Shown: in pieces, positions 2,806-62,640 of the stretch | Layout of the letters: each line of letters opens with the position of its first letter | Numbering within the stretch: the stretch's first letter is position 1 | Assembly (NCBI GenBank): GCA_949152475.1 | Contig: OX424564.1 | Location: 31,618,165-31,682,164 of the forward strand | DNA from: Terebella lapidaria | Taxonomy: Eukaryota > Annelida > Polychaeta > Terebellida > Terebellidae | DNA: 64,000 nucleotides | Direction: 5' to 3' | Notes under the pieces: model-generated | The model's input: the letters and a program-made list of their open reading frames with translations, nothing else | What the model was told of the DNA's origin: nothing | Databases searched by the model: none | Position numbers and translations under genes: made by a program

Positions 2806-4745
2806 GAATAATGGTTTACATTTGCACAAAGAACTGTGACTGTATTTACCTGAACTGAACAACTTCCTTTACTTACACGTTGATTAAATTGAATTAATAT
2901 ATTTTTCACCACTAAACTATTCATATTCCAAGTATACCTACGACTTCGAACATTAACAAAAATAATACCCAACGACTTTCATTGTACTAATGACAGGGGC
3001 TCATCAGGTAAACTTGGTTGATCAGCCTTACAGTTCACTCTGAAAATGCATGGCTAAAAAGTAACATGAAAAACTCGGCTCTTGAATACAGACGGGAATG
3101 AATGAGTGGTTGGCTTTTGGTTTTTTTTCACATTTGCTCTACATGTATCTTTGTAGTCCCCGAACAGAAATTATCGAGGGTTTCCTGAACCACTTCTCTT
3201 GTAATACTAATGATGAATCCCATTGTCAAAACTCGGTCACCGGATACTGTGACAAGTCATTTCAGTCACACGTGAATATCCCCCAATGTTTAGTTATGAG
3301 CGAAATGAATGGTAATGGATCAATTTGAACAACTTCACTCGTACAAACTAACAACGCAGGTCTGCTTGATGCACATTACACTATCACACCCACGATTCAT
3401 AAATATGTCATCTGTCATTCCAGCAAATTGCATTCTGCAAAAGGTTGTAACTGTGACACACGTTAATCAAAGCAGATATATCGATCCTAAAGCAAAAGTA
3501 GCATCATTTATGTGTCCCATTTGACCCTCTCCAGCCGAGCTGCCGAATCCGATTTACTTTTCCCATTGATAGTTTATGCTTGGTATTATGTTGTGTGTAT
3601 TGCAGGTTTTTTGTTTTTTAATAAGCCTCGATGACCCCATGAGCATATGATTTGTAATCATGGGGAAAACAGTCATATTTTTTTGACGCTCAATTGGTAA
3701 TAAAAAATGTGTCCAAATATTTTGAAATAATATATGTTATAATAATATTCACAACTTACAATATGGTTCATACCACAGTTTGAACTACTAACTAAAAAAA
3801 ATGTTTCTCGGATAGATTTCTCAGTTGCAAAGAAACATAATTACCTTTCACCATATTATATTCCTTACCAGTTTGAACAAGCTTGTGATTGCAAGGCATA
3901 AATACCTACTTCATCATCTGCACCATAGATAAGATTATTAATACGAATATTATCAATCATGCAATTGCCATTACGGGTCAAGTACCTCGACATTGTTTCC
4001 ATTTTTTGTTTCATAGGAAATGTGGAACCTAGAAACATTTCCCTCCAAGCAACAGACGCTATTCATGAAGTTGTATGAATTGTTTAGCATAGTGGTTTAT
4101 TATTTATTCAACAACCTTCTATTGATAGGTAACTATCATAATTCGACCATCAATGTGTTAATAGCAGTGTGAAAATACGGTCAATCATAATGAGGTATTG
4201 GCATTTTATGAGCCATAGTGTCAAAGACCAGACTATGGATGAGATGAAGCAATATTGCAATGTATTATTAAATGTTTCGTTGAACAATACTGACTAGTTG
4301 TACTAAATTTTCCCAAAAAAAGAATCCGACAAGTAATACTGGTAGATATATTATTATATGTCTCATCAGTGCGTTCCTATCTTAATGAATGTAGTTTGGG
4401 TAGTGCAATAAATATCCACGACCTCATTGATTGCCAGTTGATACAAAACTCTCGTCAATGCACTCAATGGCTCTGTACCCCACTATGTAAACGAACTCGT
4501 TTGCGAAGATGTTTCACAAAGGACTGCCAGTTCTATTCACCTTCAAGATTATAGAGCGGATCTTATGACATACGATTAATGACAGTGGAAAGAGGAAAAT
4601 TCATGTGTATTACCAGCCAAGATTGGGAATAAGATATTTGTGTGATTTTTGTTTATTTGTCTATTTCCCGTATCCAAAACAAAACTGCACGCAAATCTTG
4701 TAAGCACAATTTCAGAAATGGGTGTTACGTCAGGTCGTAATTTTC

Positions 4746-5010
4746 CTGGGCTTTAACAATTATTTCCCACTTTTTATATTAATTCCAGGTTTTCATATTT
4801 GATTCCAGGTTTGAATATTTATTTCCAGGTTTAATATTTCATTTCCGGTTTGATAAAACAATTCCGGGTTTGAACATTTATTTCCTGGTTTTAATATTTA
4901 TTTCCCAGTTTTAACATCTAATTCCAGGTTTAATACTTAGTTCCAACTTTTAATATATTTATTTAATGCCTGGTTTTAAATAATTATTTCCCAGTTTCCC
5001 AGGTTTTTTC
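4746..5010 (+). repeat. degenerate ~27-bp tandem array (ATTTCCAGGTTTTAAT type)
   Basis: About nine imperfect units of the type ATTCCAGGTTTTAATATTT follow one another. The same array occurs at 23,795-24,030 and, inverted, around 22,556-23,045 and 23,386-23,440. It always lies at the edge of an R2 block. Confidence 0.7.
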
Positions 5011-9963: not shown

Positions 9964-12218
9964 AGGCTACCGGACCTTTGGTCCGTAACCTATTGGCATG
10001 GCGATGCGTCCGGCGTCGTCGTCCGTCGTCCGTCGTCGTCGTCCGTCAACAATTTTATCTTTAAAGTTTACGATCGAATTTTTCTGAAATTTTGCACAAA
10101 AATGCCTAAAAATATTTCGAGAGGGAGGTATTTTTTAGTTTTTGATTTTCGCATTTTTTTTTCAAAATGGCGGCCGTTTTCGACGAAAAATGCCTGATTT
10201 TGGACTTTGGCGGCCATTTTCTCAAAATCTGTTCAGTAACTTTTTTTTTATTGATGCATAACACTCCTCATATGTACTCTTGTGACACGTATAAATTTCG
10301 TTGCGCTTGAATCGCTCGAAGTGGACCATTTTGGGCCCAAACTCGGCCCAAATGGGACTTTCCCATGTTAAATTCTCCTATGCTTTATAATGGGACACAT
10401 TAAAGCCTAATATCTCACTTAATATTGAGATTAGAGACTAGGAATCAATTGTGGACATATAGGAAATGATATATGCTGAATATTGTCGTGACCTTGAATT
10501 TGACCTCTGACCTTGGTTTCAAGGTCAGAGCGGCCGTTTTCGTCGAAAAATGGCCAATTTTGGACTTCGACGGTCGTTTTCTCAAAATCTGTTCAGTAAC
10601 TTTTTTTTCTTATTGATGAAAAACACTCCTCATATGTACCCCTGTGACATGTATAAATTTCGTTGCGCTTGAATCGCTTGAAGTGGGCCATTTTGGGCCC
10701 AAACTCGGCCCAAATGTGACTTTCCCATGTTAAATTTTCCTATGCTTTATAATGGCACACATTAAGCCTAATATCTCACTTAATATTGAAATTAGAGACT
10801 AGGAATGAATTGTGGACATATAGGAAATGATATATGCTGAATATTCTCGTGACCTTGAATTTGACTTTTGACCTCATTTTCAAGGTCACAGGACAAAATG
10901 GCTAATATCTCGCTTACTATCGACTTTACAGCTTAGGAATCAGTTGTGAACATATAGGAAATGATATATGCTGAATATTCTCGTGACCTTGAATTTGACC
11001 TTTGACCTCATTTTCAAGGTCACATGACAAAATGGCTAATATCTCGCTTATTATCGACTTTACAGTTTAGGAATCAATTGTGAACATATAGGAAAGGATA
11101 TATGCTGAATATTTTCGTGACCTTGAATTTGACCTTTGACCTCATTTCCAAGGTCGCAGGACAAAATTGCTAATATCTCGCTTATTATCGACTTTACAGC
11201 TTAGGAATCAATTGTGAACATATAGGAAATGATATATATGCTGAATATTCTCGTGGCCTTGAATTTGAGCTTTGACCTCATTTTCAAGGTCACAGGACAA
11301 AATGGCCAATATCTTGCTTATTAGCGACTTTACAGCTTAGGAATCGATTGTGAACATATAGGAAATGATATATACTGAAAATTCTCGTGACCTTGAATTT
11401 GACCTTTGACCTCATTTTCAAGGTCACAGGACAAAACGGCCAATATCTTGCTTATTAGCGACTTTACAGCTTAGGAATCAATTGTGAACATATAGGAAAT
11501 GATATATGCTGAAAATTCTCATGACCTTGAATTTGACCTTTGACCTCATTTTCAAGGTCACATGACAAAATGGCTAATATCTCACTTATTATCGACTTTA
11601 CAGCTTAGGAATTAATTGTGAACATATAGGAAATGATATATGCTGAATATTCTCATGACCTTGAATTTGACCTTTGACCTCATTTTCAAGGTCACAGGAC
11701 AAAATGGCCAATATCTTGCTTATTAGTGCCTTTACAGCTTAGAAATCAATTGTGAACATATAGGAAATGATATATAATGAATATTCTAGTGACCTTGAAC
11801 TTGACTTTTGACCTCATTTTCAAGGTCAACAGGACAAAATGGCTAATATCTCGCTTATTATCGACTTTACAGCTTAGGAATCAATTGTGAACATATAGGA
11901 AATGATATATTCTGAATATTTTAATGATATTGAATTTGACCTTTGACCTAAATTTCAAGGTCAGTCATTTTATTTTCAAAGTCAGATTACAAAATGGCTT
12001 ATATCTCGCTTATTATCAAATTTACAGCTTAGGGGTCCATAGTGAACATATAGGAAATGATGTATGCTGAATAGTTTGGTGATCTAGAATTTAACCTTTG
12101 ATCCCATTTTCAAGGTTAGAGATATGGCGATTTCAGTGGTCACCTTGAATTTGACCTTCAACTTTCTCGGCTTAACTCTGTATATTTCGCCGGTAACCTT
12201 TCTAGCCCATTGGGCTAA
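9964..12218 (+). mobile_element. hairpin-ended, tandem-core non-autonomous element, copy 1 (Helentron/'pearl'-like)
   Basis: The left end reads AGGCTACCGGACC, TTT, GGTCCGTAACC, which is a hairpin. The right end is GGTAACC followed by the hairpin TAGCCCATTGGGCTAA. Read outwards, both ends finish in CTAA beside a T or A tract. Inside are a short run of CGTCGTC units, a conserved 5' part with ATGGCGGCC segments, two copies of a unit of about 350 bp, a tandem core of about 134-bp units, and the 3' end. There is no open frame longer than 93 codons, so it is non-autonomous. Known Helentron-associated elements (DINE-1, mollusc pearl elements) share the terminal hairpins, tandem core and T-tract insertion. 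That classification is inference. The empty site in R1 copy a proves insertion. Confidence 0.8.
10851..12150 (+). repeat. ~134-bp tandem core with nuclear-receptor-type motifs
   Basis: Units begin GACCTTGAATTTGACC at 10,851, 10,984, 11,119, 11,255, 11,389, 11,523, 11,657, 11,791, 11,926 and a degenerate one at 12,081. Six of them contain the perfect TGACCTTTGACCT, a DR1 repeat of AGGTCA on the minus strand. Most contain TGACCTTGA, the extended half-site TCAAGGTCA on the minus strand. Units share CTTTACAGCTTAGGAATCAA and ACATATAGGAAATGATATAT. These motifs are visible directly. Any receptor binding is inference. Confidence 0.85.
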
Positions 12219-14149: not shown

Positions 14150-14832
14150 TCAAAGTTTTCATTACCATTTGCAATATTTCTTCAACACTCAACATCAAAT
14201 GCTTCAGGCTGATAGCGCTATCCTTATCTGATTCAGTATAACTTGACTGAATGAGGTTCTACCCAGTATTTTTGTTTGACAGATGACTCGATGACATATA
14301 GTATAATGTTGATCATCAAACAGGGCTGTTCATTTGTACAACGGAAATTGTTCAGATTGCTCTATTATCATGCTTTAAGCTAAACATCTAAACTAAACAT
14401 CCAGCTTTATTCGGGTGTGACTGAAATTGTGGTAATATCCGTTGATCCAGTTTTGACAATGGGATCATCATTAGCATTACTCGAGGAGTGGTTCAGAAAT
14501 TTCCAGGATAATTATTGTTCAAGGATTGCAGATAAAATCAACAAAGGAACAAAAGGCATTCATTGATTCAGAAGAGGTTCCATTTTGAATATGCGTATTC
14601 AAAAAGATACAAATGAAGTAAAACGCCTTTCCCCCATGCATGATCTTTGGTGAATATACTCTTTGTAAATTTGTTCAATAACAAACTTGTGTACTCCATA
14701 AATACGATGTATGCATGATCTTTGGTGTATATACTCTGTAAAAATTGTTCAATAACAAACTTAATCTTTATAGTTACAAATAGTTGCTAGACATATTCAT
14801 AGACCATGTAGACGTAGAGTCAATACCCAGTA
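14150..14832 (+). repeat. dispersed repeat R2, copy c
   Basis: Closely follows 5,490-6,190: TTTCATTACCATTTGCAATA, CTTCAGGCTGATAGCGCTAT, GTTGATCCAGTTTTGACAAT and the two GCATGATCTTTGGTG segments. The CATT run is reduced to a single unit. It is interrupted at its end by the TTAA-flanked element; the uninterrupted counterpart is at 6,181-6,205. Confidence 0.75.
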
Positions 14833-14836
14833 TTAA

Positions 14837-15553
14837 GGTGTGATTGCACGTAACTTACCGGTGACTGCACTGAGGCACTTTTTCATTGACTTATAATGTG
14901 GTAGTAAAGGTAACAAAATCACCAAAACAATACAATCCCCTGACCTAAAACTTGGCTAGCACACACACATATACTCATGGATGATGAACCGAGACATGGT
15001 TTCATAAATGATATCACGGAAGCTGTGCAATTTGATGATTGGATAAATCATTTTATACGTTTCACCAAAACGAAGATTCGAGTGTTCTGCTTGACAAGCA
15101 TTGGCTGTTGCATATATTTATTCCTTGTTGTCGTCAAAATAATGATAATATCTAGGGCTATACTTTCTGTGAGATGAATACAATGAGCTGAACATTCATA
15201 ATCCCAAACACCTCGGTGCACCCGAGTGCATATCACCTGTGAGTTTTACTGGCATCACTAGGTATTTGCTGCACAGCATAATCCTTTCGCTCGCCCTGTT
15301 GTGAGTGTATTTTGTAGATTGAGAAATAGGTCGGAAAATGACATATGAAAACAATGAGTTTAACAAATTTAACATTTCTTATTAAGAAACAGAGTCTCGG
15401 TTAGTAATCCTTGATGGCTAACAATCAGAAAGGCAAAGTTTCACGTTGATTGGAAGTGTGTAAATTCATGAATTTGTTACCTTTATATTTACATTATAAG
15501 TGAATGGACAGCTGGTCAATGCCAGGTTCATGAAGATCACATGCAATCAATCC
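14837..15553 (+). mobile_element. 717-bp TTAA-flanked element, copy 1
   Basis: Flanked by TTAA on both sides (14,833-14,836 and 15,554-15,557). The homologous uninterrupted site near 6,190 has a single TCAA there. The ends are inverted: GGTGTGATTGCACGTAACTT on the left and GGATTGATTGCATGTGATCT as the reverse complement of the right, followed in both by a CTTATAATG stretch. An almost identical 718-bp copy lies inverted at 36,096-36,813. It has no transposase. TTAA duplication is typical of piggyBac and Kolobok elements, so it is probably a non-autonomous member of one of them. Confidence 0.85.
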
Positions 15554-15557
15554 TTAA

Positions 15558-16626
15558 GTATTCCGAGCGAGCAAAACAGGGTCCGTTATCCAATCTAATA
15601 GTCCGGGGACAGAAACTCATGCATACGAAGTGAGAGAAAACAAAAATGACAGGGAAACTCATGAACCCCAAAAATGGCCATTAGGAGATGAAATCAGGTG
15701 TTTTCCGGGAAGAGTGAGCATTTCCTGCACCACTAGTGGCACCCGTCATGAATTCCCCAAAACTCACATGAAAATAGATCCAGTTGCATGGCAGTCATGG
15801 ACTTGGTGTATTTGTGTAAATACACAAATGATCTGGTGTATTTATCAACCATCTTGATGACGGGCATATAATTTCTTAAAGGCAGCTATAAACCTTGGTA
15901 AAACATATTCTTGTCGCAGCAGGTTAGAGACTAGCTGGGCACTTCGATAAACAAAGTCCTCATATTTGCAACTAGCTCTGGAATACCGTATAAGCTGAGA
16001 AACAAACACACCATGTGCTGGTGACCCTGGAATGTTGCTGCTTAGAAAAGGGAAATTGACTATGGACAAATTAAAATCATTACGTCATCTATTTGCGTGT
16101 CACACAAGTGGTGATTGGTGATACCCCCAACCCCTCCCAGTATCCATAGGAGAGAGAACAATCATCTTCGAAAGGAAATGTCAGTATTTCATCCTGCCAA
16201 TGGCTCAATTTATTTATGTTTTGCAAACATCAAACACGCAAATGGAGATGGATGTGTTGCGAATTCAGGGACACGGGCCTTAGAATTACAGTTGGGAAAC
16301 GTGGGTATTTATCATTAATCATTGATGATGTTGAATGTAAATGAAATATTCTCACAATGTGTAAAGTCTAGTTGTTTCTACTGTACAGTTGATGAGATTA
16401 GTATATTTCAACTGTTGAACAACAGAGTAAACCATTTCAGAAATCCTAAACGAACCCGACGTAAAATAAAATCCAGGAATTCCTTTATACTTCTCTAAAT
16501 GTTAACCAATCTGAGAGGAATTTCTTTGGGTTTTGCTTTCTAGATTAACTTCGTTACTAGTTCACTCGTATTTCAGGAAATCTCCATTTGACAATAGGAC
16601 TTCAGGCAGATATACATGTAACACAG
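15558..16626 (+). repeat. R2-associated mosaic and R2 copy d, left half
   Basis: 15,558-16,340 follows 6,190-7,140 with deletions. 16,340-16,626 is the start of an R2 block (CTCACAATGTGTAAAGTCTA to GACTTCAGGCAGATATACAT). The R2 text stops at GTAACACAG where the hAT element begins and resumes after it at 21,204. Confidence 0.7.
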
Positions 16627-17257: not shown

Positions 17258-20200
17258 CATTCACGGATTATCTTCATTATCTCCCAAAATGAATGCCAGC
17301 AAGTCATCAACATCAGCCACAGCATCCCGAAACTGAGGTTTACGTGCCCGCTGTCCTGTGGTCCACCACCTGTTCATCGCCTTGGTGCCATTGAAGTCTT
17401 CGAACTGGGGACCCTGGATGGAGGACAGCATCAGGCGATCGGTTTGTTCAGTAGAAAGGGATGCTCTCCAGTCAGATTTGATTCTTTTCAAACAGGAAAA
17501 CCCTCTTTCGCAGACAGCTGATGACATGAGCTGAATTGTGAGGAGCTCATACACTTTAAGAATGCTTGAGTACTTCTCAACATTCCCTGTTGCATAGAGT
17601 GCTGATATCTGAGGTGTGCGGCCTGTGGCAACAACTTGGTTGGCAAGCTGTGCCTTCAAGACAGTCCACTGTTGTAGAACAACTGCACGGTCCACCTGGA
17701 GTCTATCTAGGACAGGTTGGAAATGGTCCATAATGAGAGTTAATTCCTTGACCCCATACACAGCTAACTCTGCCCGTTGCTTCGGCCATTCACACACGTC
17801 GAAGACACGACCAGCCATGAGTATAGGCTTAGCTGGATCTCCTGGACAATCAAGCCTGCGGTTGATGTGATCTTGCACATCTGTTATCACATCAGCATAT
17901 CTGCTCTGGCTCTCATCACCATCGGTTGTGTCAGGTACATTCTGTAGACTGATTCCTTTGAAAGATGTGTTCCCATCCGTTACCACCAGTGACTTGAGGA
18001 ATTCTCCCTGGTGGACTCCTGGTTGTTGACTCAATGCTACAAGCTCAAGATTGGCCGTTTCAATAGCATCCAGTGTGGAGTTTGGGGTCACTGAAGCCTT
18101 TTGGAACTCCAAGCTCAGTCTGGCTACAACAGCGAGCAGATCCCTCATGAAGTGGATGAATTCCAGGATTCTGTAGTCCTTTAGCTTTTTGGTTAGGTAC
18201 ACGGCCCTCCCTCGAACCTCAGCTGACGATTCTCCAGGTCTTGCCTGGCTAACATGCTCAAAATGAGTGTACAGAACCTCGTAGCATGTTGTTGCCGTCC
18301 TCAGGGCCTTCTCCATGTGTGGGGTCCATCTTGTGCCGTCAACCCTACTTGGTTTCAATAGCTTCTCTTCCATCGCGTTGGCTATCTCCTTCACCTCGCG
18401 GCATGCCTTTGGTGAGTATTTGTGGTGTTTATAAATTTTGTGCAGAATGTCTTTCACGTCTTCAAGAAGTTTGTGCTGCTTTATCGCAGAGACCACCGCC
18501 AATTCCAGTCTGTGGGCCACACAGTGGATTACCAAGACATAGTCATGTCCCTCCTTGATCCGGTTGCGACACTGTTCCTGACACCTATGTTCACTTTGGC
18601 GCCGTCACACCCAATGCCGACTACTTTAGTTCTCCAGTCCTCAATGTTGTTGTCCACAAAAGCCCTGTCAATGGCACCAAACACGCCATCAGCGTGTGCG
18701 TGCTCAGCAGCCTTGAGAGCCAAGTAGTAGTTTTCGGCATGGCCATCCACTAATAGACGGACAAAGACGATTTCTTGCTCGACCACACTAGTGTCAGTAG
18801 CCCCGTCAAATACAACAGTGATCATATCTGCGTTGTGAAGCTTCTCGAGGATCGGCGACCTAATCTCATCGGATATATGCTCAGAAAGGCGGCGACATGC
18901 ATTATCCGAGCTATACGAGGTGAGTTTTTCTAACGGTGAATCACACCGTTATCACATCAGCATATCTGCTCTGGCTCTCATCACCATCGGTTGTGTCAGG
19001 TACATTCTGTAGACTGATTCCTTTGAAAGATGTGTTCCCATCCGTTACCACCAGTGACTTGAGGAATTCTCCCTGGTGGACTCCTGGTTGTTGACTCAAT
19101 GCTACAAGCTCAAGATTGGCCGTTTCAATAGCATCCAGTGTGGAGTTTGGGGTCACTGAAGCCTTTTGGAACTCCAAGCTCAGTCTGGCTACAACAGCGA
19201 GCAGATCCCTCATGAAGTGGATGAATTCCAGGATTCTGTAGTCCTTTAGCTTTTTGGTTAGGTACACGGCCCTCCCTCGAACCTCAGCTGACGATTCTCC
19301 AGGTCTTGCCTGGCTAACATGCTCAAAATGAGTGTACAGAACCTCGTAGCATGTTGTTGCCGTCCTCAGGGCCTTCTCCATGTATGGGGTCCATCTTGTG
19401 CCGTCAACCCTACTTGGTTTCAATAGCTTCTCTTCCATCGCGTTGGCTATCTCCTTCACATCGCGGCATGCCTTTGGTGAGTATTTGTGGTGTTTATAAA
19501 TTTTGTGCAGAATGTCTTTCACGTCTTCAAGAAGTTTGTGCTGCTTTATCGCAGAGACCACCGCCAATTCCAGTCTGTGGGCCACACAGTGGATTACCAA
19601 GACATAGTCATGTCCCTCCTTGATCCGGTTGCGACACTGTTCCTGACACCTATGTTCACTTTGCCGCCGTCGCACCCAATGCCGACTACTTTAGTTCTCC
19701 AGTCCTCAATGTTGTTGTCCACAAAAGCCCTGTCAATGGCACCAAACACGCCATCAGCGTGTGCGTGCTCAGCAGCCTTGAGAGCCAAGTAGTAGTTTTC
19801 GGCATGGCCATCCACTAATAGACGGACAAAGACGATTTCTTGCTCGACCACACTAGTGTCAGTAGCCCCGTCAAATACAACAGTGATCATATCTGCGTTG
19901 TGAAGCTTCTCGAGGATCGGCGACCTAATCTCATCGGATATATGCTCAGAAAGGCGGCGACATGCATTATCCGAGCTATACGAGGTGAGTTTTTCTAACG
20001 GTGAACCATTCTTTTTCTGCAGACTCAATAATCTTGGAAGTTCTGTGAAAGGGTGTTCATATTTCATTACATAGTACACGGTATTAAACAGCATCAACAG
20101 GATTGCCGTATTTGCCTCGTTCAGCTTGCGAATGATAACGTCCAGTGGGCCTTGCCTTTGATCTTTCGTGCCCCGTGCTCTCTGCTCTGCCGCAACATAG

Positions 20201-20519
20201 ATGTTATAACACCTCTCATGGCAGGCTGATTCCCAGTGCGATCGGAGAGAATCCAACCGGAACGAAGCACATCCAGAAGCAAAAATGGAATTGTCTTTCA
20301 GCGCAGTCGGTATGTTTTCCGAAGAACAGTACTTGCATTTCATGAAATTCGTGTCATCGTCGTACAATAAACCGTCAAATTTTTGCACCCACTCAGGTTT
20401 GAATGCTCTTTTCACTCGTTTCACTTAAGTTTTGCCTCTTTCCTCTTCACGGACGATTTTTCGCTAGATTCTGTGTTTTCTTTTTGGAAACCGAATCTAA
20501 ATAATGTTGACATAGCCAT
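17258..20519 (-). pseudogene. hAT transposase pseudogene, ZNF862-like
   Basis: Reading from 20,519 down: a possible N-terminal start (MAMSTLFRFGFQK) runs into a stop at 20,421. The main frame then opens at 20,424 with FKPEWVQKF and a CKYC...CASF...RSHWESACH zinc-finger-like module of the BED/TTF kind. Next come the catalytic-core segment ITVVFDGATD and GIGCDG. The frame breaks near 19,630, and continues one frame over with VIHCVAHRLELAVV. The C-terminal hAT dimerisation segment (LLTIQLMSSAVCERGFSCLK, then SDWRASL and LMLSSI) ends at 17,261. This order matches ZNF862-type hAT transposases, normally about 600-800 residues. Two frameshifts and an internal duplication destroy it. The frameshift at VAT/RIKEG is present in both duplicated arms. 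Confidence 0.9.
17883..20005. repeat. 1,065-bp tandem duplication inside the hAT element
   Basis: 17,883-18,940 is repeated at 18,948-20,005 with an exact 1,065-bp offset. I noticed only about four differences, for example at 18,319/19,384 and around 18,600/19,665. A 7-bp filler (TCACACC) lies at the junction. The duplicated piece covers the middle of the transposase. The near identity indicates the duplication is recent relative to the rest of the element's neighbourhood. Confidence 0.95.
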
Positions 20520-22555: not shown

Positions 22556-23045
22556 TTCAAACCTGTAATTATTAATTATTGAAACTGGGAACTTAAATGT
22601 TAGAAGCGGGAGATAAATACCATAGACATAGATGAGAGATGGACTGCCAACTCGACCTCAGTGACATTGAGCTTGTGACCAGAAGAAGATGGGAACTTTA
22701 TTTCCGGTTTGAAGTTTCATGGGAAAATTGAATTGTCAAAATACGTCGAATACCGTAAGTGAAGTCAACACTGAGGATCGTCATGAATGAACAATGGCAA
22801 TACGACGTTATACTTTGACATCGAAAGTGTAACTACCATCTTCCTCTGACCTTTTGTGACCGCAAGCTCAATGACTAGAAACAGAGACAGTGATATCGGA
22901 GTTGGCAGTCCATTTCTCTTCTATGTCTATGATAAATACTAAATCCCGGAACTAAATGTTCAGACCAGGAATTAAATATTCACACCCAGAATTGATTATT
23001 CAAAATGGGAATTGAATATTCGAACCTGGAATTAGATATTGAATG
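22556..23045 (-). repeat. inverted ~27-bp tandem array split by a MITE
   Basis: Units of the type GGAATTAAATATTCAGACC are the reverse complement of the arrays at 4,746 and 23,795. The array is interrupted by the 311-bp foldback element at 22,621-22,931. Confidence 0.65.
22621..22931. mobile_element. 311-bp MITE with 8-bp target-site duplication
   Basis: The left end is CATAGACATAGATGAGAGAT and the reverse complement of the right end is CATAGACATAGAAGAGAAAT. Both continue GGACTGCCAACTC and, after a gap, ATTGAGCTTG and GAAGATGG, so each arm is about 90-100 bp. ATAAATAC lies directly on both sides (22,613-22,620 and 22,932-22,939). An 8-bp duplication fits hAT- or P-type elements. Confidence 0.75.
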
Positions 23046-23794: not shown

Positions 23795-24030
23795 CTGACA
23801 ATTATTTCCGATTTTTCATACTTAGTTCCGGGTTTTCATATTTAATTCCAGGTTTTATTATTTAATTTCCCGGCTTGGATAATCAATTCCGGGTTTTAAC
23901 ATCTATGTCCTGGTTTTAATATTTATTTCCCAGTTTTAACATCTAATTCCAGGTTTTATACTCAATTCCAGTTTTTATTATTTGATTCCTGGTTTTGAAC
24001 GCTTAATCCCCAGTTCCCAGGTTTTTCCAG
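23795..24030 (+). repeat. ~27-bp tandem array, second forward copy
   Basis: Same unit and same following text (CCAGTTAGTAAATAAGTCTT) as at 4,746-5,020. Array and R2 therefore travelled together. Confidence 0.7.
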
Positions 24031-33710: not shown

Positions 33711-35259
33711 AGGTTACCGGACCTTTGGTCCGATAACCTATTGGCATGGCGTTGCGTCCGTCGTCCGTCCGTCCTTCCGTCCGTCCGTCCGTCCGTCCGT
33801 CCGTCCGTCCGTCCGTCCGGCGTTAACATTTTTATCTTTAAAGTTAACGATCGAATCTTTCTGAAATTTTGCACAAAAATGCCTAAAAATATTTTGAGGA
33901 GGAGGTATTTTTTTGTTTTTTGATTTTCGCATATTTTTCAAAATGGCGGCCGTTTTTGTCGAAAAACGCTCAATTTTGGACTTTGACGGCCATTTTCTCA
34001 AAAACTGTCTGATCAGTTTTGAGTTTTTGGTTTCAAAAGATTCCCCTCGTATACCTCTGTGATATGTATAAGTTTGGTTGCCCTAAATCTGCCGGTTTTC
34101 GTGTGGCGGCCATTTTGAATTTTTGGCGGGTCGGCGAAAAAAAATTTTTTCGCCCCAGATCGCATTACTATCCATTTTGGGCCATTTCTAGCGCAAAAAA
34201 AAATTTTCACCCTTTGAAAAAAATTTTGGACTTAGAAAATTTTCGGCACTTTTTCCCTTCATAATGGGAGCTGTCAGGACTGTACTCATAGAACGCTTGA
34301 AGATAGAGCTTAGAAATTGGCACTTTCAAATGGGAAGTCATATATGGCGACTTGTGTGGTGACCTTGAATTTGACCTTGGATGACCTTGAAAGGTCAAAA
34401 CAGCCATTTTTGGGTCGAAAAACGCTCAAATTTGCACCTGGTCTGTATTTTCTCAAAAACTCTCTGATCAGTTTTGAGATTTTTGCTTAAAAAGATTCCT
34501 CTTATATACCTCTGCGACGTGTATAAGTTTTGTTGCCCTTGAATCGCCGATCTCAGTATGGCGGCCATTTTGAATTTTTGACGAGTCGGCGAAAAAAAAA
34601 ATTTTCGCCCCAAATAACATTACTATCCATTTTGGGCCATTTCTAGGCAAAAAAAAATTTTCACCCTTTGAAAAAAATTTTGGACTTAGAAAATTTTCGA
34701 AACTTTTTTCCTTCATAATGGGAGCTGTCAGGACTGTACTCATAGAACGCTTGAAGATAGAGCTTAAAAATTGGCACTTTCAAATCGGAAGTCATATATG
34801 GCGACTTGTGTGGTGACCTTGAATTTGACCTTGGATGACCTTGAAAGGTCAAAACAGCCATTTTGGGGTCAAAAAATGCCCAGATTTGCCTTTGTAGATG
34901 AAATGCTTGCAGATAGAGCTCCTGTTTGCATTATGAACATATAGGAAGACATATATGGCACAACTAATGATGACCTTGAACTTGACGTCAGATGACCTTG
35001 AGTGCCAAATGTCTGACTTGGAATGTGTAAATTGACCTGAGCGGCCTAAACGATTCCACCCAACATATAGAATATCAAATGCCGCACACATACATGTAAT
35101 GGTTACATCGAAGTTCATACGGATGACCTTGATTGGTAAATCCCAAGGTCATATGTTTACACTGCGAACCTTGATTGGTAAATCTCAAGGTCTGTTACCT
35201 GCCAATATGCCATGGCCAAACCAAAATTGTCCGGTAACCTATCTTAGCCTTTGGGCTAA
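33711..35259 (+). mobile_element. hairpin-ended, tandem-core element, copy 2
   Basis: The left end is AGGTTACCGGACC, TTT, GGTCCGATAACC, followed by TATTGGCATGGCG and a perfect (GTCC)n run at 33,766-33,820. The right end is GGTAACCTATC plus the hairpin TTAGCCTTTGGGCTAA. T tracts flank both sides. The 5' 250 bp match copies 1 and 3, but the centre is different: two units of about 454 bp (34,000-34,455 and 34,455-34,910), each with a TTGACCTTGGATGACCTTGA segment. No coding capacity. Short frames at 33,500-34,860 are shadows of the repeats. Confidence 0.8.
33766..33820 (+). repeat. (GTCC)n microsatellite in the 5' part of the element
   Basis: About 13 perfect tetranucleotide units. Copy 1 has CGTCGTCCGTC at the same place and copy 3 has GACGACGGAC on the plus strand, so a short GTC-type run is a constant part of the 5' end. 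Confidence 0.9.
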
Positions 35260-35870: not shown

Positions 35871-36091
35871 CCGACTTTGCTTTGTGCAACCAAAGAGCAT
35901 GGATGGATCTCCGTTTACGTCTTTTGATAGAGGAGAAAAAAAATCACGCAAGACTTGGGAAACAACAGCCTACAGATCATGCAAGAACGAGGAAAATATG
36001 AAAAAAAATGCACATGTGAGAGGATGAATATAGGCATTACCGATACTCTATTTAAACGGAAAATGCTGTATGATATCAATATTTATCTTTC
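35871..36091. other. unassigned stretch
   Basis: No feature recognised. Confidence 0.4.
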
Positions 36092-36095
36092 TTAA

Positions 36096-36813
36096 GGATT
36101 GATTGCATGTGATCGTCATGAACCTGGCAGTGACCAGCTGTCCATTCACTTATAATGTAAATATAAAGGTAACAAATTCATGAATTTACACACTTCCAAT
36201 CAACGTGAAACTTTGCGTTTCTGATTGTTAGCCATCAAGGATTACTAACCGAGACTCTGTTTCTTACTAAGCAATGTTAAATTTGTTAAATTCATCGTTT
36301 TCATATGTCATTTTCCCGACCTATTTCTCAGTCTACAAAATACACTCACAACAGGGCGAGCGAAAGGATTATGCTGTGCAGCAAATAGCTAGTGAGGCCA
36401 GTAAAACTCACAGGTGATATGCACTCGGGTGCACCGAGGTGTTTGGGATTATGAATGCTCAGCTCATTGTATTCATCTCCCAAAAAGTATAGCCCTAGAT
36501 ATTCTCATTATTTTGACGACAACAAGGAATAAATATATGCAACAGCCAGTGCTTGTCAAGCAGAACACTCGAATCTTCGTTTTGGTGAAACGTATAAAAT
36601 GATTTATCTAATCATCAAATTGCACAGCTTTCGTGATATCATTTATGAAACCATGTCTCGGTTCATCATCCATGAGTATATGTGTGTGTGCTAGCCAAGT
36701 TTTAGGTCAGGGGATTGTATTGTTTTGGCGATTTTGTTACCTTTACTTTCCCATTATAAGTCAATGGAAAAGTGCCTCAGTGCAGTCACCGGTAAGTTAT
36801 GTGCAATCACACC
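36096..36813 (-). mobile_element. 718-bp TTAA-flanked element, copy 2 (inverted)
   Basis: Flanked by TTAA at 36,092-36,095 and 36,814-36,817. On the minus strand it matches 14,837-15,553 almost base for base, including both inverted ends (GGATTGATTGCATGTGATC, GGTGTGATTGCAC). A 62-codon frame (36,414-36,602) is also open in copy 1 (15,048-15,236) with three visible changes, but nothing in it resembles a protein domain. Confidence 0.85.
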
Positions 36814-36817
36814 TTAA

Positions 36818-37075
36818 TTACCATCACAAGTGACTTGGTCTTATTTCTATTCCTTTATTCCAAGGATTTTCCCGTGAGTGAGTGAGTGAGTTTGTATAGA
36901 AAACGAAGTTATCAGAAAAATTCACGACACAATCACGTTAAGCTGTACACGGCTTTACAGATAAACTGATGGATCCATGGTGTGACTGTTTTTATGAAAT
37001 ACAATCTAAAATCGATGGCTTTTGGAGTTTCAGTGGCAGCCCCCTCGTCGTCACCCATTTTTTCAATCATCTAGA
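36818..37075. other. unassigned stretch before the pogo-like remnant
   Basis: No transposase-like residues can be read in any frame. The region is not recognisably part of the gene that follows. Confidence 0.4.
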
Positions 37076-37137
37076 AAGGGTTTTGCATCATATAGAAAGC
37101 GGTAATCATGTTAGAAGTCGGTATGTCTCCCCACCGT

Positions 37138-38239
37138 GGAAATGGTCCACAGTTGCTCATCCTTGACGGCCATAGCAGTCATGAGTCCCTGGAGCTGCTG
37201 GAGGCCGCCAAGGAGGCTAATATCCACTTGCTGGCACTCCCTCCCCACACCACCCACCGTCTACAGCCGTTCGACGTTAGTGTGTTCACGCCTTTCAAAA
37301 AGCAATACAATACCCTGTGTTCCAATCACATGAACATCAATCCTGGCAACGTAATAGACAAAACATCATGGCCGGCCATCTTCGCTGCAGCATACACCAG
37401 TGCGTTGTCATCGAGCAATTTAAAGAACGGTTTTCGCGCCTGTGGGATTTGTCCCTTTAATCCCAAAGCAATATGTGATGAACTCTATGCTCCATCAACA
37501 GCACTTAATGTTCCACTTTCTCCTGAAGAACAAAATCCGGAAAATGGTGGTAGAGGACAATGTCCCTAGTACTATTGCGAGTGGATCACAAGAATTAGTG
37601 GTTGGGGTTGAGGTAGCCAATGGTTTATGTGAAGGTGCGTGCGTGTTGGCAACAGGCAGTAGCGACGCATCAGCTGTACCTCTGTTGGTAGGTCAGGGAA
37701 ATGTTGTACAGAGCGCCGACACTGCAACTGATATTCTGATGTCTATGACTCAGCCCACTTTGCCAAGTACATCAAATGACGCCCGGTACCTTGACATCGA
37801 GCAGGTGCACTCGGAAGTGGCTGCGGTTTTCACAATTCCCGCAGCCCTCCCGAGGACATCAAAGAAATCGGGTAATGCCGGCTCCAGAGTATTAACCAGT
37901 GAGGAAGTAATAAACCTGAAAAAACAAAGAGAAGAGACAAGACTCAACAAAGAACGAGAAAAGCTGGAAAGAATTAATATCAGAGCAGAGAAACGAAAGA
38001 AGAAGGAGAAAGAAGCACTTACCAAGAAGATGAGGAAAGAATCTAAATCTAAATCCAGCACGATTTGTCCTGTTTGTCACGATAGATATGGCGATGACGC
38101 AGATAAAGTCTGGGTGCAGTGTAACAAGTGCTCGGTGTGGATGTGCGTGCCGTGCATTCCAAGCCATGTTGACCAAACTGGAGTTCACGATCCTTCCATA
38201 TCCTTCATTTGTCACATATGCGGACCTGGCGAACTGTAG
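37138..38239 (+). pseudogene. 5'-truncated pogo/Tigger-like DDE transposase with PHD-like finger
   Basis: The first frame (to 37,569) begins in mid-domain with LLILDGHSSHESLELLEAAK. It continues HLLALPPHTTHRLQPFDVSV and GFRACGICPFNPKAI, which is the second half of a DDE_1 core carrying the second (LDGH) and third (PFDV) acidic residues. The first catalytic Asp and the N-terminal CENP-B-type helix-turn-helix are absent. A frame change near 37,530-37,560 leads into 37,442-38,239. That frame has a Ser/Thr-rich linker, a Lys/Arg/Glu-rich helix (about residues 150-200) and a C-terminal finger CPVCHDRYGDDADKVWVQCN, KCSVWMCVPC, CHIC. In PHD fingers the residue after W-M is normally His; here it is Cys. 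PHD tails are known on pogo-like transposases of marine invertebrates. Confidence 0.8.
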
Positions 38240-38723: not shown

Positions 38724-39879
38724 ATTTGTTACACTCGAGATTTTTGCTGATGTCACTTACTTGATTTACTTGTACATACATGGTTCTCAAGTCATTCGTG
38801 AATGATGGAAAAAAATTCAACATGCATGTATCATTAAAAATTGTCGTACGAATCAAAGGCAATCATTCGTATCAACACAACCTCCAATTTATTGTACATG
38901 TATATATCAACGGTTGCCACTTACATTTATCCAGTCATCATGATGACTATTTGCATTCATTGAGATAACCACATCCATCCACTTATGTGACAGAGTTGGA
39001 GTGGCTTATTTTCAAACTTGGCCTGCACGTGTCGACAAATTGTAAAACCAGGGCAAGCCCCCAGCGCAAAATATGGATCATATTGAAATGTGAAATGAGA
39101 ATGTCGCTATCATTCAAATGAATTCCACACACGTAACAGTCAATTCCAGTGTACCGCAACTCCAATTTATGGTAGGCCATAATATTGTTAAATTAAATAT
39201 CGTCGTTTAGAATCATGCATGAGTCCATCACCAACTGACTATTCACGTTCAATTGTGTCCAAGCTCAATATATTGCTTAAATGTCAATATACAGTCGTAA
39301 ACGTTGTATTTGCATTGTATGTGCCGTGTCACGGCGTGTGGCACGTTTTGTTTTGAGTTTTTTAAAAAGACATCAAGTGCCCGACATTGCACGTCGTTGT
39401 GTCCGACATTGCACGCACCCGCCCGACATTGAACGTTTTATACATAATGATCTCTCCCCAGTTCTATTCGGTCACATGACACGTAACCTCGTTTTCGTTT
39501 TCTCTTTCAGGAAGAAGAGGTTTCCCTCGATCTAAAAATAGCACATAAGCCTTGATGAGCCACTATATCGCCCATTGACAGTTGAAAGCGTCCAAAACCG
39601 CCCGACATTCGACGTATTTACCCTAATATATCACAGTATTTATTGACAATATACAGGTTACCTAGCTTGCCAAGTTCATTTACAGTCATATTCACCAATT
39701 TTTAATACCGGTATAAATGAACCTACCAGGGCCAATAATACGTGAAAGTACTCTGGTTTTGCTCATATTTCAAGCAAAAGTACCTTAATTCCGAAGTTAT
39801 CAACAACGAGGTACTACTAGAACATCCGCTTTTGATTGTAAGGTGCTTTATTGTGTTTTTGTTCATTCATTCACCATGA
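38724..39879. other. no gene recognised; one possible terminal mini-exon
   Basis: Strong acceptor TTTTCTCTTTCAG at 39,498-39,510 precedes a 15-codon frame (EEEVSLDLKIAHKP, stop at 39,553-39,555), which could be a last exon but is too short to assert. Between 39,370 and 39,615 the motif CCGACATTG(C/A)ACG occurs three times, plus a fourth diverged copy. Otherwise nothing was seen. Confidence 0.35.
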
Positions 39880-42800
39880 TCAGGCCTGAGAAGTCATTCA
39901 TTGACCATGATCAGGCCTCAGAAGTCACTCACTGACAATGATCAGGCCTGAGGAGTCATTCATTGACCATGAACAATCCTGAGAAGTCATTCATTGACCA
40001 TGATCAGGCCTCAGATGTCACTTACTGACAATGATCAGGCCTGGGAAGTCATTCATTGACCATGAACAGGCCTGACAGTCATTCATTGACCATGAAAAAT
40101 CCTGAGAAGTCATTCATTGACCATGATCAGGCCTGAGAAGTCATTCATTGACCATGAAAAATCCTGAGAAGTCATTCATTGACCATGATCAGGCCTGAGA
40201 AGTCATCCATTGACCATGATGAGGCCTGAGAAGTCATTCATTGACCATAAACAGACCTGACAATCGTTCATTGACCATGATCAGGCCTGGGAAGTCATTC
40301 ATTGACCATGATCAGGCCTGAGATGTCACTCATTGACCATGATCAGGCCTGAGAAGTCATTCATTGACGATAAAGAACACCTAACAGACATTCAATGACC
40401 ATTAACAGGACTCAGATGTCATGCATTGACCACGATCAGGCCTGAGAAGTCACTCACCGACCATGATCAGGCCTGAGAAGTCATTCATTGACCATGAACA
40501 GGCCTGAGAAGTCACTCATTGACCATGATCAGGCCTGAGCAGTCACTCACTGACCATGATCAGGCCTGAGAAGTCACTCATTGACCATGATCAGGCCTGA
40601 GAAGTCACTCACTGACCATGATCAGGCCTGAGAAGTCATTCATTGTCCATGATCAGGCCTGAGAAGTCAATCATTGATCATGATCAGGCCTGAGAAGTCA
40701 CTCATTGACCATGAACAGGCCTCAGATGTTACTCACTGACAATGATCAGGCCTGAGAAGTCATTCATTGACCATGAACAGGCTTCAGATGTCACTCACTG
40801 ACAATGATCACGCCTGAGAAGTCACTCATTGACCATGAACACGCCTGACAAGTCATTCATTGATGACGAACAGACCTGAAAGTCAGTCATTGACTACGAT
40901 CATGCCTGAGAAGTTATTCATTGACCATAAACAGGCCTGAGAAGTCATTCATTAACCATGAACAGGCCTCACATGTCACGCATTGACCACGATCAGGCCT
41001 GAGAAGTCATCCATTGACCATGATCAGGCCTGAGAAGTCCTTTATTGACCATGATACAGCATGAGAAGTCATTCATTGACCATGATCAGGCCTGAGAAGT
41101 TATTCTTTGACCATGATCGGGCCTGAGAAGTCATCCATTGACCATGATGAGGCCTGAGAAGTCATTCATTGACCATAAACAGACCTGACAATCGTTCATT
41201 GACCATGATCAGGCCTGGGAAGTCATTCATTGACCATGATCAGGCCTGAGATGTCACTCATTGACCATGATCAGGCCTGAGAAGTCATTCATTGACGATA
41301 AAGAACACCTAACAGACATTCAATGACCATTAACAGGACTCAGATGTCATGCATTGACCACGATCAGGCCTGAGAAGTCACTCACCGACCATGATCAGGC
41401 CTGAGAAGTCATTCATTGACCATGAACAGGCCTGAGAAGTCACTCATTGACCATGATCAGGCCTGAGCAGTCACTCACTGACCATGATCAGGCCTGAGAA
41501 GTCACTCACCGACCATGATCAGGCCTGAGAAGTCACTCATTGACCATGATCAGGCCTGAGAAGTCACTCACTGACCATGATCAGGCCTGAGAAGTCACTC
41601 ACCGACCATGATCAGGCCTGAGAAGTCATTCATTGACCATGAACAGGCCTGAGAAGTCACTCATTGACCATGATCAGGCCTGAGAAGTCACTCACTGACC
41701 ATGATCAGGCCTGAGAAGTCATTCATTGTCCATGATCAGGCCTGAGAAGTCAATCATTGATCATGATCAGGCCTGAGAAGTCACTCATTGACCATGAACA
41801 GGCCTCAGATGTTACTCACTGACAATGATCAGGCCTGAGAAGTCATTCATTGACCATGAACAGGCTTCAGATGTCACTCACTGACAATGATCACGCCTGA
41901 GAAGTCACTCATTGACCATGAACACGCCTGACAAGTCATTCATTGATGACGAACAGACCTGAAAGTCAGTCATTGACCACGATCATGCCTGAGAAGTTAT
42001 TCATTGACCATAAACAGGCCTGAGAAGTCATTCATTAACCATGAACAGGCCTCACATGTCACGCATTGACCACGATCAGGCCTGAGAAGTCATCCATTGA
42101 CCATGATCATGCCTGAGAAGTCCTTTATTGACCATGATTCAGCATGAGAAGTCATTCATTGACCATGATCAGGCCTGAGAAGTCATTCGTTGACCATGAT
42201 CAGGCCTCAGATGTCAAGCATTGACCATGATCAGGCCTCAGAAGTCATTCATTGACCATGATCAGGCCTGACAAGTCATTCATTGACGATAAACAGCCCT
42301 GAAAGTCATTCATTGACCGTGATCTGGCCTGAGAGGTTATTCATTGACCATGATCAGGCCTGAAAAGTCATTCATTGACCATGAACCGGCCTCAGATGTC
42401 ATGCATTGACCAGATCAGGCCTGTGAAGTCATCCATTGACCATGATACGGCCTGAGAAGTGATTCATTGACCATGATCAGACCTGAGAAGTTATTTATTG
42501 ACCATGATCAGGCCTGAGAAGTCATTCATTGACCATGAACAGGCCAGAGAAGTCATTCCTTGACCAAGATCAGGCCTGAGAAGTCATTCACTGACCATGA
42601 TCAGGCCTCAGATGTCACTCACTGACAATGATCAGGCTTGAGAAGTCATTCATTGACCCTGATCAGGCCTGAGAAGTCATTCATTGACCATGAACAGACC
42701 TAACAGTCATTCATTGATGATAATCAGGCCTGAGAAGTCACTCAGTAACCCTGATCAGGTGTGAGAAGTCATTCATTGACCATGATGAGGCCTGAGAAAT

Positions 42801-45800
42801 CATTCATTGACCATGAACAGACCTGACAATCGTTCCTTGACCATGATCAGGCCTGAGATGTCACTCATTGACCACTGATCAGGCCTGAGAGGTCATTCAT
42901 TGATGATAAACTGACCTGACAGACATCCAATGACCATTAACAGGCGTCAGATGTCACGCATTGACCACGATCATTCCTAAGAAGTCACTCACTGACCTTG
43001 ATCAGGCCTGAGAAGTCATTCATTGACCATGAACAGGCCTGAGAAGTCACTCATTGACCATGATCAGGCCTGAGAAGTCACTCATTGACCATGAACATGC
43101 CTCAGATGTCACTCACTGACAATGATCAGGCCTGAGAAGTCATTCATTGACCATGAACAGGCTTCAGATGTCACTCACTGACAATGATCAGGCCTGAGAA
43201 GTCATTCATTGACCATGATCAGGCCTGAAAGTCATTCATTGACCACGATCATGCTTGAGAAGTTATTCTTTGACTATGAACAGGCCTGAGAAGTCATTCT
43301 TTGACCATGATCAGGCCTCAGATGTCACTCACTGACAATGATCAGGCCTGAGAAGTCATTCATTGACCATGATCAGGCCTGAGAAGTCATTCATTGACCA
43401 TGAACAGACCTAACAGTCATTCATTGACGATAATCAGGCCTGAGAAGTCACTCATTAACCCTGATCAGGCCTGAGAAGTCATTCATTGACCATGAAAAAT
43501 CCTGAGAAGTCATTCATTGACCATCATCAGGCCTGAGAAGTCATTCATTGACCATGATGAGGCCGGAGAAGTCATTCATTGACCATGAACAGACCTGACA
43601 ATCGTTCCTTGACCATGACCAGGCCTGGGAAGTCATTCATTGACCATGATCAGGCCTGAGATGTCACTCACTGACCAGTGATCAGGCCTGAGAGGTCATT
43701 CATTGACGATAAACTGACCTGACAGACATTCAATGACCATTAACAGGCCTCAGATGTCACCCATTGACCACGATCAGGCCTGAGAAGTCACTCGCTGACC
43801 TTGATCAGGCCTGAGAAGTCATTCATTGACCATGAACAGGCCTGAGAAGTCACTCATTGACCATGATCAGGCCTGAGAAGTCACTCATTGACCATGAACA
43901 TGCCTCAGATGTCAATGAACAGGCCTCAGATGTCATTTACTGACAATGATCAGGCCTGAGAAGTCATTCATTGACCATGAACAGGCCTCAGAAGTCACTC
44001 ACTGACCATGGTCTTATCTGAGAAGTCACTCATTGACCATGAACAGGCTTCAGATGTCACTCACTGACCATGATCACGCCTGAGAAGTCACTCATTGACC
44101 ATGAACAGGCCTGAGAAGTCATTCATTGACGATGAACAAACCTGACAGTCATTCATTGACCATACTCAGGCCTGAGAAGTCATTCATTGACCTTGATTAG
44201 GCCTCAGATGTCACTCATTGACCATGATCAGGCCTGAGAAGTCACACATTGACCATGACCAGGCCTCAGAAATCACTCATTGACCATGATCACGCCTGGG
44301 AAGTCATTCATTGACCATGATCAGACCTGAGAAGTCATTCATTGACCATGATCAACCCTGAGAAGTCATTCATTGACCATGATCAGGTCTGACAAGTCAT
44401 TCATTGACCATGATCAACCCTGAGAAGTCATTCATTGACCATGATCAGGCCTGAGAAGTTATTCATTGACCATGATCAGGCCTGAGAAGTTATTCATTGA
44501 CCATGATCAGGCCTGAGAAGTTATTCATTGACCATGATCAGGTCTGAGAAGTCATTCTTTGACCATGATCAGGCCTGAGAAGTTATTCATTGACCATGAT
44601 CAGGCCTGAGAAGTTATTCATTGACCATGATCAGGTCTGAGAAGTTATTCATTGACCATGATCAGGTCTGAGAAGTCATTCTTTGACCATGATCAGGCCT
44701 GAGAAGTTATTCTTTGACCATGATCAGGTCTGAGAAGTCATTCTTTGACCATGATCAGGCCTGAGAAGTTATTCATTGACCATGATCAGGCCTGAGAAGT
44801 TATTCATTGACCATGATCAGGCCTGAGAAGTTATTCATCGACCATGATCCGGTCTGAGAAGTCATTCTTTGACCATGATCAGGCCTGAGAAATCATTCAT
44901 TGACCGTGACAAGGCTTGTGAAGTCATTCATTGACCATGGTCAGGCCTGAGATGTCATCCATTGACCACGATCAGGCCTGAGAAGTCATTCATTGACCAT
45001 GATCAGGCCTGAGAAGTCATTCTTTGACCATGATCAGGCCTGAGAAGTCATTCATTGGCCATGATCAGGCCTGAGAATTCATTCGTTGACCATGAACAAG
45101 CCTGAGAAGTCATTCATTGACAATGAACAGGCCTAACAATCATTCATTGACCATGAACAGGCCTGAGAAATCATTCATTGACCATGATCAGGCCTGGGAA
45201 GTCATTCATTGACCAAGAACAGGCGTGAGAATTCATTCATTGAGCATGATTAGGCCTGGGAAGTCATTCTTTGACCATGAACAGGCCTGAGAAGTCATTC
45301 ATTGACCATGATCAGGCCTGAGAAATCATTCATTGACCGTGACCAGGCTTGTGAAGTCATTCATTGACCATGATCAGACCTGAGAATTCATTAATTGACC
45401 ACGATCAGGTCTGAGAAGTCATTCATTGACCATGATCAGGTCTTGGAAGTCATTCATTGACCAAGAACAGGCCTGAGAAGTCATTCATTGACCATGAACA
45501 GGCCTGAGAAGTCATTCATTGACCATGAACAAGCCTGAGAAGTCATCCATTGACCATGACCAGGCCTGACAGTCATTCATTGACCGTGATCAGGCCTGAG
45601 AAGTCATTCCGTGACCATGGACAGGCCTGACAAGTAATTACTTGACCATGAACAGGCCTGCCAATCATTCATTGACCATGAACAGGCCTGAGAAGTCATT
45701 CATTGACCATGATCAGGCCTGGGAAATCATTCATTGACCATCATCAGACCTAAGAAACCATTCATTGACCATGATCAGGCCTGAGAAGGCATTCATTGAC

Positions 45801-56367: not shown

Positions 56368-56808
56368 AAAAATAGCTGGATGTGGCTCAAAAAGTTAGTG
56401 ACTTGCGTTCACACCATTTTTGTTGTTGTTTCGCTGACCGATCTGAAAATTAAAATGGCCGCCATGTGCAGACCAGTTGTTCAGGGGCAACGAAACTTAT
56501 ACTCATCACAAAGGTAGATATGTTGAGTGCCCGGCATAATTTGCCATATATTTGAAAAAAAAGTTACTGAACAGAATTTGAGAAAACGACCGTCAAAGTT
56601 AAAAAATGATCGGTTTTTCATGGAAAAATAGCTGTCCTTTTACAAAAATGCGGAAAGAAAATATCTCCCTCATGGAATATTTTCAGGTAAATTTGTGCAA
56701 AATTCCAGAGAAATTCGACCGACTTCAAATATCAACAATGTAGGCGATTGATGGATGACGGACACATCACCATGCCAATATGTTATCGGACCAAAGGTGT
56801 GGTTACCT

Positions 56809-62331: not shown

Positions 62332-62640
62332 TGGTTGAATTCGCTTCAATTGATAAAATTATTTTTGGACAGTTGATTTCGCTTCAATTGATACACTTTT
62401 TTCAGACAGTTGATTTCGCTTCAATTGATACACTTTTTTCAGACAGTTGATTTCGCTTCAATTGATACACTTTTTTCAGACAGTTGATTTCGCTTCAATT
62501 GATACACTTTTTTCAGACAGTTGATTTCGCTCCAATTGATACACTTTTTTCAGACAGTTGATTTCGCTTCAATTGATACACTTTTTTCAGACAGTTGATT
62601 TCGCTCCAATTGATACACTTGTTTCTTTCAGACAATTGAT
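62332..62640 (+). repeat. 37-bp minisatellite, about 8 units
   Basis: Unit GTTGATTTCGCTTCAATTGA plus TACACTTTTTTCAGACA, 37 bp, repeated about eight times with few changes. The paralogous position at 27,140-27,185 has a single unit. Confidence 0.95.

Follow-up and report, generated by a model that had tools for sequence, protein, structure and literature searches.

Organization of the locus

The window, that is, the whole 64,000-nt stretch of Terebella lapidaria DNA analyzed here, contains an element of 2255 bases, E1, which houses a whole array of candidate receptor sites (Table 1). A second copy of its subfamily (E2), a diverged subfamily (E3) and a 5' piece of another related element (E4) are found in the same window. 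The longest alignments of E1 and E2 are 91 and 93% identical, with gap-free stretches reaching 95-96%, and E3 is 79% identical to E1 across the first 385 aligned columns. The original prediction had assigned a mobile element to 10851-12150. The array is indeed located there, but this span corresponds to the array only, and the element itself extends from 9964 to 12218.

Table 1. Positions of E1, its component parts and its relatives in the window
Feature	Position	Strand	Remarks
Paralogue of the E1 flanks, uninterrupted (empty site, T6)	3843-4190	+	
E1, non-autonomous HINE-like element, flanked on either side by T5	9964-12218	+	Ends aligned with E2/E3; absent from the empty-site paralogue at 3843-4190
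E1 5' subTIR AGGCTACCGG and its inverted repeat (foldback)	9964-9991	+	
E1 CGTC/GTCC-type microsatellite	10007-10047	+	
E1 first motif unit, outside the 134-bp array	10488-10527	+	TGACCTTGA, DR1 with another spacer base, TCAAGGTCA
E1 tandem array of 134-bp units, 8.9 copies	10768-11963	+	TRF
E1 nine core motif clusters, TGACCTTGA - DR1 - TCAAGGTCA	10849-11963	+	Exact DR1 in 6/9
E1 two decayed motif-like units	12079-12164	+	
E1 3' subTIR CCGGTAACCT	12190-12199	+	
E1 3' palindrome TAGCCCATTGGGCTA	12203-12217	+	
E3, diverged HINE subfamily, 2 x 454-bp core	33711-35259	+	13 AGGTCA half-sites, no DR1
E2, second copy of the E1 subfamily	53853-56367	-	9 exact DR1
E4, 5' piece of another related element	56480-56808	-	

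The window is eukaryotic, with relics of hAT-like (17261-20424, minus strand) and DDE_1 (37096-37569) transposases. The hAT-like ORFs are ZNF862-like and include a zinc-finger piece at 19594-20424; the segments 17261-18604 and 18941-19690 share one protein stretch, so that part of the hAT-like gene is present twice. Among the 93 hits to the hAT-like protein, obtained by scoring the 7995 candidates that share most words with it, the best-scoring match has 53% identity, and the named matches come from fish, amphibians, a priapulid, a hemichordate, a brachiopod, lancelet, coral, and molluscs. The DDE_1 transposase piece lies in 37096-38239 (plus strand), where an ORF in another frame, without a Pfam match, overlaps and then follows it. 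Another repeat forms an inverted pair about 20.5 kb apart (14832-15558 and 36091-36818, 97% complementary). Related-looking 20-bp tandem repeats, TTTAATTCCAGG-like, are situated at 4771-4956, 22945-23040, and 23802-23996, and 62334-62625 is taken up by a 37-bp tandem repeat of very high homogeneity (7.9 copies, 96% matches).

Mobility and classification

The flanks of E1 are 95 and 94% identical to an uninterrupted paralogue. The empty site reads CCA-TTTTTT-G and the filled site CCA-TTTTT-E1-TTTTT-G. The step from T6 to T5 plus T5, seen at E1 only, fits a 4-T duplication and Ts belonging to the element alike. No empty site for E2 or E3 was found in the window. The empty-site paralogue, the presence of two copies in different flanks, and the anatomy described below together bear out the earlier claim that the array is carried by a mobile element.

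E1, E2, and E3 share the 5' end AGG(T/C)TACCG, directly followed by the inverted repeat GGTCCG(A)TAACC. Folding of this 5' inverted repeat, calculated for E1 and E3, gave -6.9 and -10.6 kcal/mol, respectively. The subterminal inverted repeats are perfect in E3 (AGGTTACCGG / CCGGTAACCT) and have one mismatch in E1 (AGGCTACCGG) and in E2 (AGGTTACCGA). In all three elements CCGGTAACCT, the reverse complement of the 5' end, precedes a palindrome and then a T-run; the palindrome is TAGCCCATTGGGCTA in both E1 and E2. The palindromes fold only modestly better than shuffles, at -4.6 kcal/mol in E1 and -4.7 kcal/mol in E3, values equaled by 11 and 8 of 200 shuffles, respectively. Between the ends lie a CGTC/GTCC microsatellite (10007-10047 in E1, 33755-33819 in E3, and 56285-56316 in E2) and then central tandem repeats, which form arrays at 33958-34889 in E3 and 54108-55567 in E2, and at the position given in Table 1 in E1.

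These features match the published description of HINEs, which are non-autonomous Helentrons, from mites and Drosophila (PMC4067079) and from the Pacific oyster (PMC7492417). HINEs typically have a short, often GTCY-like microsatellite ahead of their tandem repeats, and they insert in T-rich sites without duplicating the target. An autonomous Helentron was not found in the window: none of its seven closed stop-to-stop ORFs of at least 150 aa, all scanned against Pfam, matched Rep or helicase, a scan that a decayed copy broken by stops would escape. Exact-word scans of IMG/VR gave no match, and those of bacterial and archaeal genomes, from which records near the source genome were possibly excluded, gave none either. 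Five IMG/VR matches to a 19-base word (L001-L005) were rejected, having no similarity to E1 or E3 of more than 20 bases by blastn (E up to 1); because the five share identical 100-base flanks and no longer similarity, they were taken as chance.

Receptor-like words in the window

DR1, the direct repeat of AGGTCA with one spacer base, is the preferred site of RXR/HNF4/PPAR-type dimers, and TCAAGGTCA is that of ERR/NR5-type monomers. Receptor heterodimers are also reported to bind DR sites in a half-site mode (PMC6555819).

The exact DR1 TGACCTTTGACCT occurs six times in E1 (10996, 11130, 11400, 11534, 11668, and 11937), and its reverse complement nine times in E2 (starts 54122-55327); outside these two elements it is absent from both strands of the 64-kb window. 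The nine core units of E1, each of 134 bp (starts 10849-11924), contain the exact DR1 in 6/9, TCAAGGTCA on the minus strand in 7/9 and on the plus strand in 8/9. Since TCAAGGTCA is present on both strands in most core units, the typical unit can be written TGACCTTGA - DR1 - TCAAGGTCA. The original prediction had stated that six core units carry DR1 and that nearly all carry the minus-strand word. Both statements agree with these counts, to which the words on the plus strand are a new addition. When all motif-like units are counted, exact DR1, TGACCTTGA, and TCAAGGTCA are found in 6, 8, and 9 of the 12 units of E1 and in 9, 10, and 9 of the 14 units of E2. The first unit of E1 (10488) has a different base in the DR1 spacer (TGACCTCTGACCT). 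The last two units of both arrays are without exact motifs; those of E1 (12079 and 12139) are decayed and retain none of the three.

On both strands together, TCAAGGTCA occurs 17 times in E1, 19 times in E2, seven times in E3, and four times in a stretch of 31-bp satellite, and not at all in the remaining 49,178 bases, that is, outside E1-E3 and the satellite stretch at 39.7-48.2 kb. The satellite array itself covers 8.2 kb (39863-48108) with about 267 copies and 83% matches, and its four TGACCTTGA words are probably due to chance. Against the 17 words in E1, 300 dinucleotide shuffles gave a mean of 0.01, and the maximum was 1 in 300 shuffles of each element; DR1 with any spacer base occurs seven times in E1 and was absent from the dinucleotide shuffles. 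Half-site and TCAAGGTCA counts in E1, E2, and E3, made with element bounds at most 5 bases off the final ones, are all far above those of the shuffles. As a description of sequence, an array of consensus nuclear-receptor words is thus upheld by exact matches, shuffles, and unit counts. Because tandem copies are not independent, the counts represent one amplified motif cluster and not many separate origins.

E3 contains two DR4, one in each tandem copy, and no DR1; a 3-nt length difference turns the DR1 spacing into that of DR4. A perfect DR1 array was therefore rejected as a description of the whole lineage, and DR1 as a dimer site is, within the window and as judged from its sequence, a trait of the E1/E2 subfamily. 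Near the end of E3 (35124-35192) are two short-loop inverted pairs, TGACCTTGA...CCAAGGTCA (35124-35151) and AACCTTGA...TCAAGGTC, in a region that has no above-shuffle alignment to the unit of E1.

Conservation of the motif bases

Within the arrays of E1 and E2, 24 of the 26 units entered the unit tests; the final unit of each element (E1_u11 and E2_u13) was excluded because its aligned slice overlaps the preceding unit. Core tests used 20 of these 24 units, the first and the decayed unit of each element being left out. All p values that follow for conservation are optimistic, since the motif was chosen for being conspicuous. By parsimony on a tree of the 20 core units, 31 motif columns required nine changes and the 103 other columns 74, a value as low in 2 of 134 circular shifts and with p = 0.007 by random column sets. 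The p value rises to 0.037 without CpG-prone columns and to 0.16 when the 3' tail of the unit is removed as well. For the same three column sets, p is 0.011, 0.058, and 0.27 after removal of unit u1 (18 units), and 0.039, 0.15, and 0.20 when the last core unit is removed as well (16 units). Parsimony on all 24 units gave 16 changes in the motif columns and 110 in the others (p = 0.005; 6 of 134 shifts). Counted as variable columns, motif and other columns differ in the core set (8/31 versus 51/103, p = 0.024) and show no difference in the 24 units (15/31 versus 61/103, p = 0.31; 14 or 15 of 134 shifts). The DR1 columns alone are unremarkable, as 18 of 134 shifts are as low by divergence and 10 of 134 by states. 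Among all 20-column blocks of the unit, GTGAACATATAGGAAATGAT (10946-10965 and its counterpart in each unit) has the fewest changes; it is no receptor site known to us. This block recurs as GAACATATAGGAAGACATATATG in E3 (34935-34957), and further blocks of the unit are well preserved too.

These numbers bear on a neutral account, in which the founding unit held AGGTCA words by chance, amplification and transposition copied them, and nothing uses them. This account overlaps the explanation preferred below, and we give it a little less than even odds. As the copies in an array share ancestry, motif counts are no proof of use, and the within-array conservation is not robust, as seen from the p values of 0.037 and 0.16 in the stricter tests. 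Nine colinear E1-E2 unit pairs point the same way, with 3 differences in 279 motif sites and 22 in 925 sites elsewhere (p = 0.23); these pairs were hand-picked from the distance table, and E1_u8/E2_u10, which are 9.0% apart, may be no true pair. The decay of the terminal units would also be in keeping with neutrality. Against it, the half-sites outlast their surroundings across the split between E1 and E3, and further AGGTCA words, for example the 35124-35151 pair, are present in the part of E3 that does not align to the unit of E1 above shuffles.

In the comparison of E1 with E3, the first unit of E1 and its surroundings keep 24/24 half-site bases and 186/265 other bases, gaps being counted as lost (Fisher p = 0.0005; none of 288 slid masks did as well). 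When one core unit of E1 is set against the corresponding part of E3, the figures are 23/24 and 46/72, respectively (p = 0.002; 1 of 95 slid masks), and the comparison of E1 with the third unit of E3 gives 17/18 and 34/48 (p = 0.051; 4 of 65 slid masks). Because the aligner was free to bring repeated TGACCT words into line, the 24/24 is flattered, and the half-sites were therefore also counted without alignment. The E1 and E3 regions hold four half-sites each. In neutral simulations with 5% indels, at least four half-sites were kept in 68, 23, 13, and 6 of 5000 runs at 15, 20, 25, and 30% substitution, respectively. On this sequence comparison, the half-sites are better kept across subfamilies than the DR1 dimer. 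Because the half-sites are kept and the DR1 spacing is not, binding to half-sites or by monomers is favored over binding of a DR1 dimer, provided that selection acts at all. On whether the DR1 bases are better kept than the rest of the unit, the check proposed with the original prediction, the outcome is mixed: the motif columns have fewer changes within the arrays and the half-sites persist across subfamilies, but the signal fades in the stricter column sets and the DR1 spacing is lost in E3.

Selection on behalf of the element would explain why the half-sites are kept. A receptor of the germ line or early embryo could open the chromatin of the element and expose it to the Helentron machinery, and we consider this unlikely. 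The corresponding history, equally improbable in our estimation, would be that the Helentron lineage kept half-site clusters through subfamily divergence since receptor binding in germ line or embryo aids copying, while the spacing (DR1, DR4, or inverted pairs) drifts. The survival of half-sites beyond the DR1 spacing between E1 and E3 fits this possibility, as do the occupancy by NR5A2 of B1 elements that bear its motif, reported for early mouse embryos (PMC10709309), and the expression of the oyster HNF4 homologue, which suggests a maternal origin (PMC5041327). On the other hand, the argument draws on three elements from a single window, the block of the unit that is kept best, GTGAACATATAGGAAATGAT, is not a receptor site, and the authors of the mouse work favor other factors as openers of B1 at the 2-cell stage (PMC10709309).

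Other explanations for the repeated words

The unit also contains an 11-bp inverted repeat, GTGACCTTGAA...TTCAAGGTCAC, and a foldback in DNA or RNA, in place of receptor binding, might be what matters. For one unit (10983-11026), folding as single-stranded DNA gives -11.4 kcal/mol (z = -5.8), which none of 200 shuffles equaled. However, a comparison of 24 units revealed no pair that was changed on both sides and restored, the two final full units of each array have 6-8 Watson-Crick pairs instead of 11, and E3 does not retain the 11-bp arms in full. With no compensatory pair among the 24 units, the hairpin was rejected as a kept feature, and a role for it appears quite unlikely.

Internal repeated words bind the element's own transposition protein in some other DNA transposons, and sites for the replication protein of the element, in place of host receptors, would be a very improbable reading of the words described here. 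Some oyster HINEs, those of group 2, are reported to have like ends and unrelated central repeats (PMC7492417), so a shared internal signal is no rule of the group.

Proposed origin and binding of the array

The preferred explanation, to which we assign a probability of about 0.7, is that E1 and E2 belong to one HINE subfamily in which an inherited cluster of half-sites was multiplied, that the array is predicted to be bound in vitro, and that in vivo it is mostly passive, with an occasional effect on a neighboring gene. Seen directly are the anatomy, the insertion of E1 in a T-run, the gain and loss of units between the cores of E1 and E2, and the motif content. E1 and E2 would have been moved by rolling-circle replication through a presumed autonomous Helentron elsewhere. 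Presumably the ancestor shared by E1/E2 and E3 already had the receptor half-sites, which may then have been multiplied along with the tandem unit. The resulting array would be a ready cluster of AGGTCA half-sites, to which NR5/ERR-like monomers and HNF4/RXR-like dimers with a preference for TCAAGGTCA or DR1 would bind in vitro. Judging from its words, such in vitro binding by receptors is probable. In vivo, most copies would be passive passengers, and neighboring genes might be affected now and then. The rewiring of nearby expression and the role as a receptor sponge put forward in the original prediction would be hypothetical effects of the array.

If the arrays are bound, each insertion would bring about ten receptor-site clusters at once. 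They also allow a test of whether HINE tandem cores are simply carried along or persist on account of the factors that they bind.

Comparison with known systems

Both the element type and the spread of transcription-factor sites by transposons are already well known. In the literature searched, mostly openly accessible main texts, no report of receptor-site arrays in HINEs was found, and a full-text search for sequence words of the element gave no match. The main text of the oyster HINE paper has no mention of "nuclear receptor", "transcription factor", or "binding site" (PMC7492417). E1 and E2 have in common with Cg_HINE of Crassostrea gigas and with DINE-1-like elements the subTIRs, 5' inverted repeat, GTCC-type microsatellite, central tandem repeats, 3' palindrome, and non-coding nature, and E1 shares the insertion into Ts as well (PMC7492417; PMC4067079). 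They seem set apart from Cg_HINE, as described in the main text of that work, by the 134-bp core unit with AGGTCA words. DINE-1-like elements have been reported to carry sites for the dosage-compensation complex (PMC4067079).

Nuclear-receptor sites are spread by other transposable elements as well. Alu elements carry HNF4 sites (PMC3252374) and likewise DR2 retinoic acid elements (PMC1785376), but these sites reside in a SINE and not in the tandem array of a Helentron relative. Mouse B1 also has a receptor motif, that of NR5A2, within a mobile element; it differs in being a SINE and in that binding in vivo was demonstrated (PMC10709309), whereas E1 and E2 are known from sequence. The Helitrons of Caenorhabditis with heat-shock elements are a further parallel, because they too are a rolling-circle family that spreads the sites of one factor, with tandem sites hinted at (PMC6927752). 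Their sites are those of HSF-1 and their binding was shown (PMC6927752), whereas the sites of E1 and E2 are receptor-like by their letters. If the arrays described here are bound, HINEs would supply an animal lineage with hormone-type control, in the way that Helitrons spread heat-shock sites in worms.
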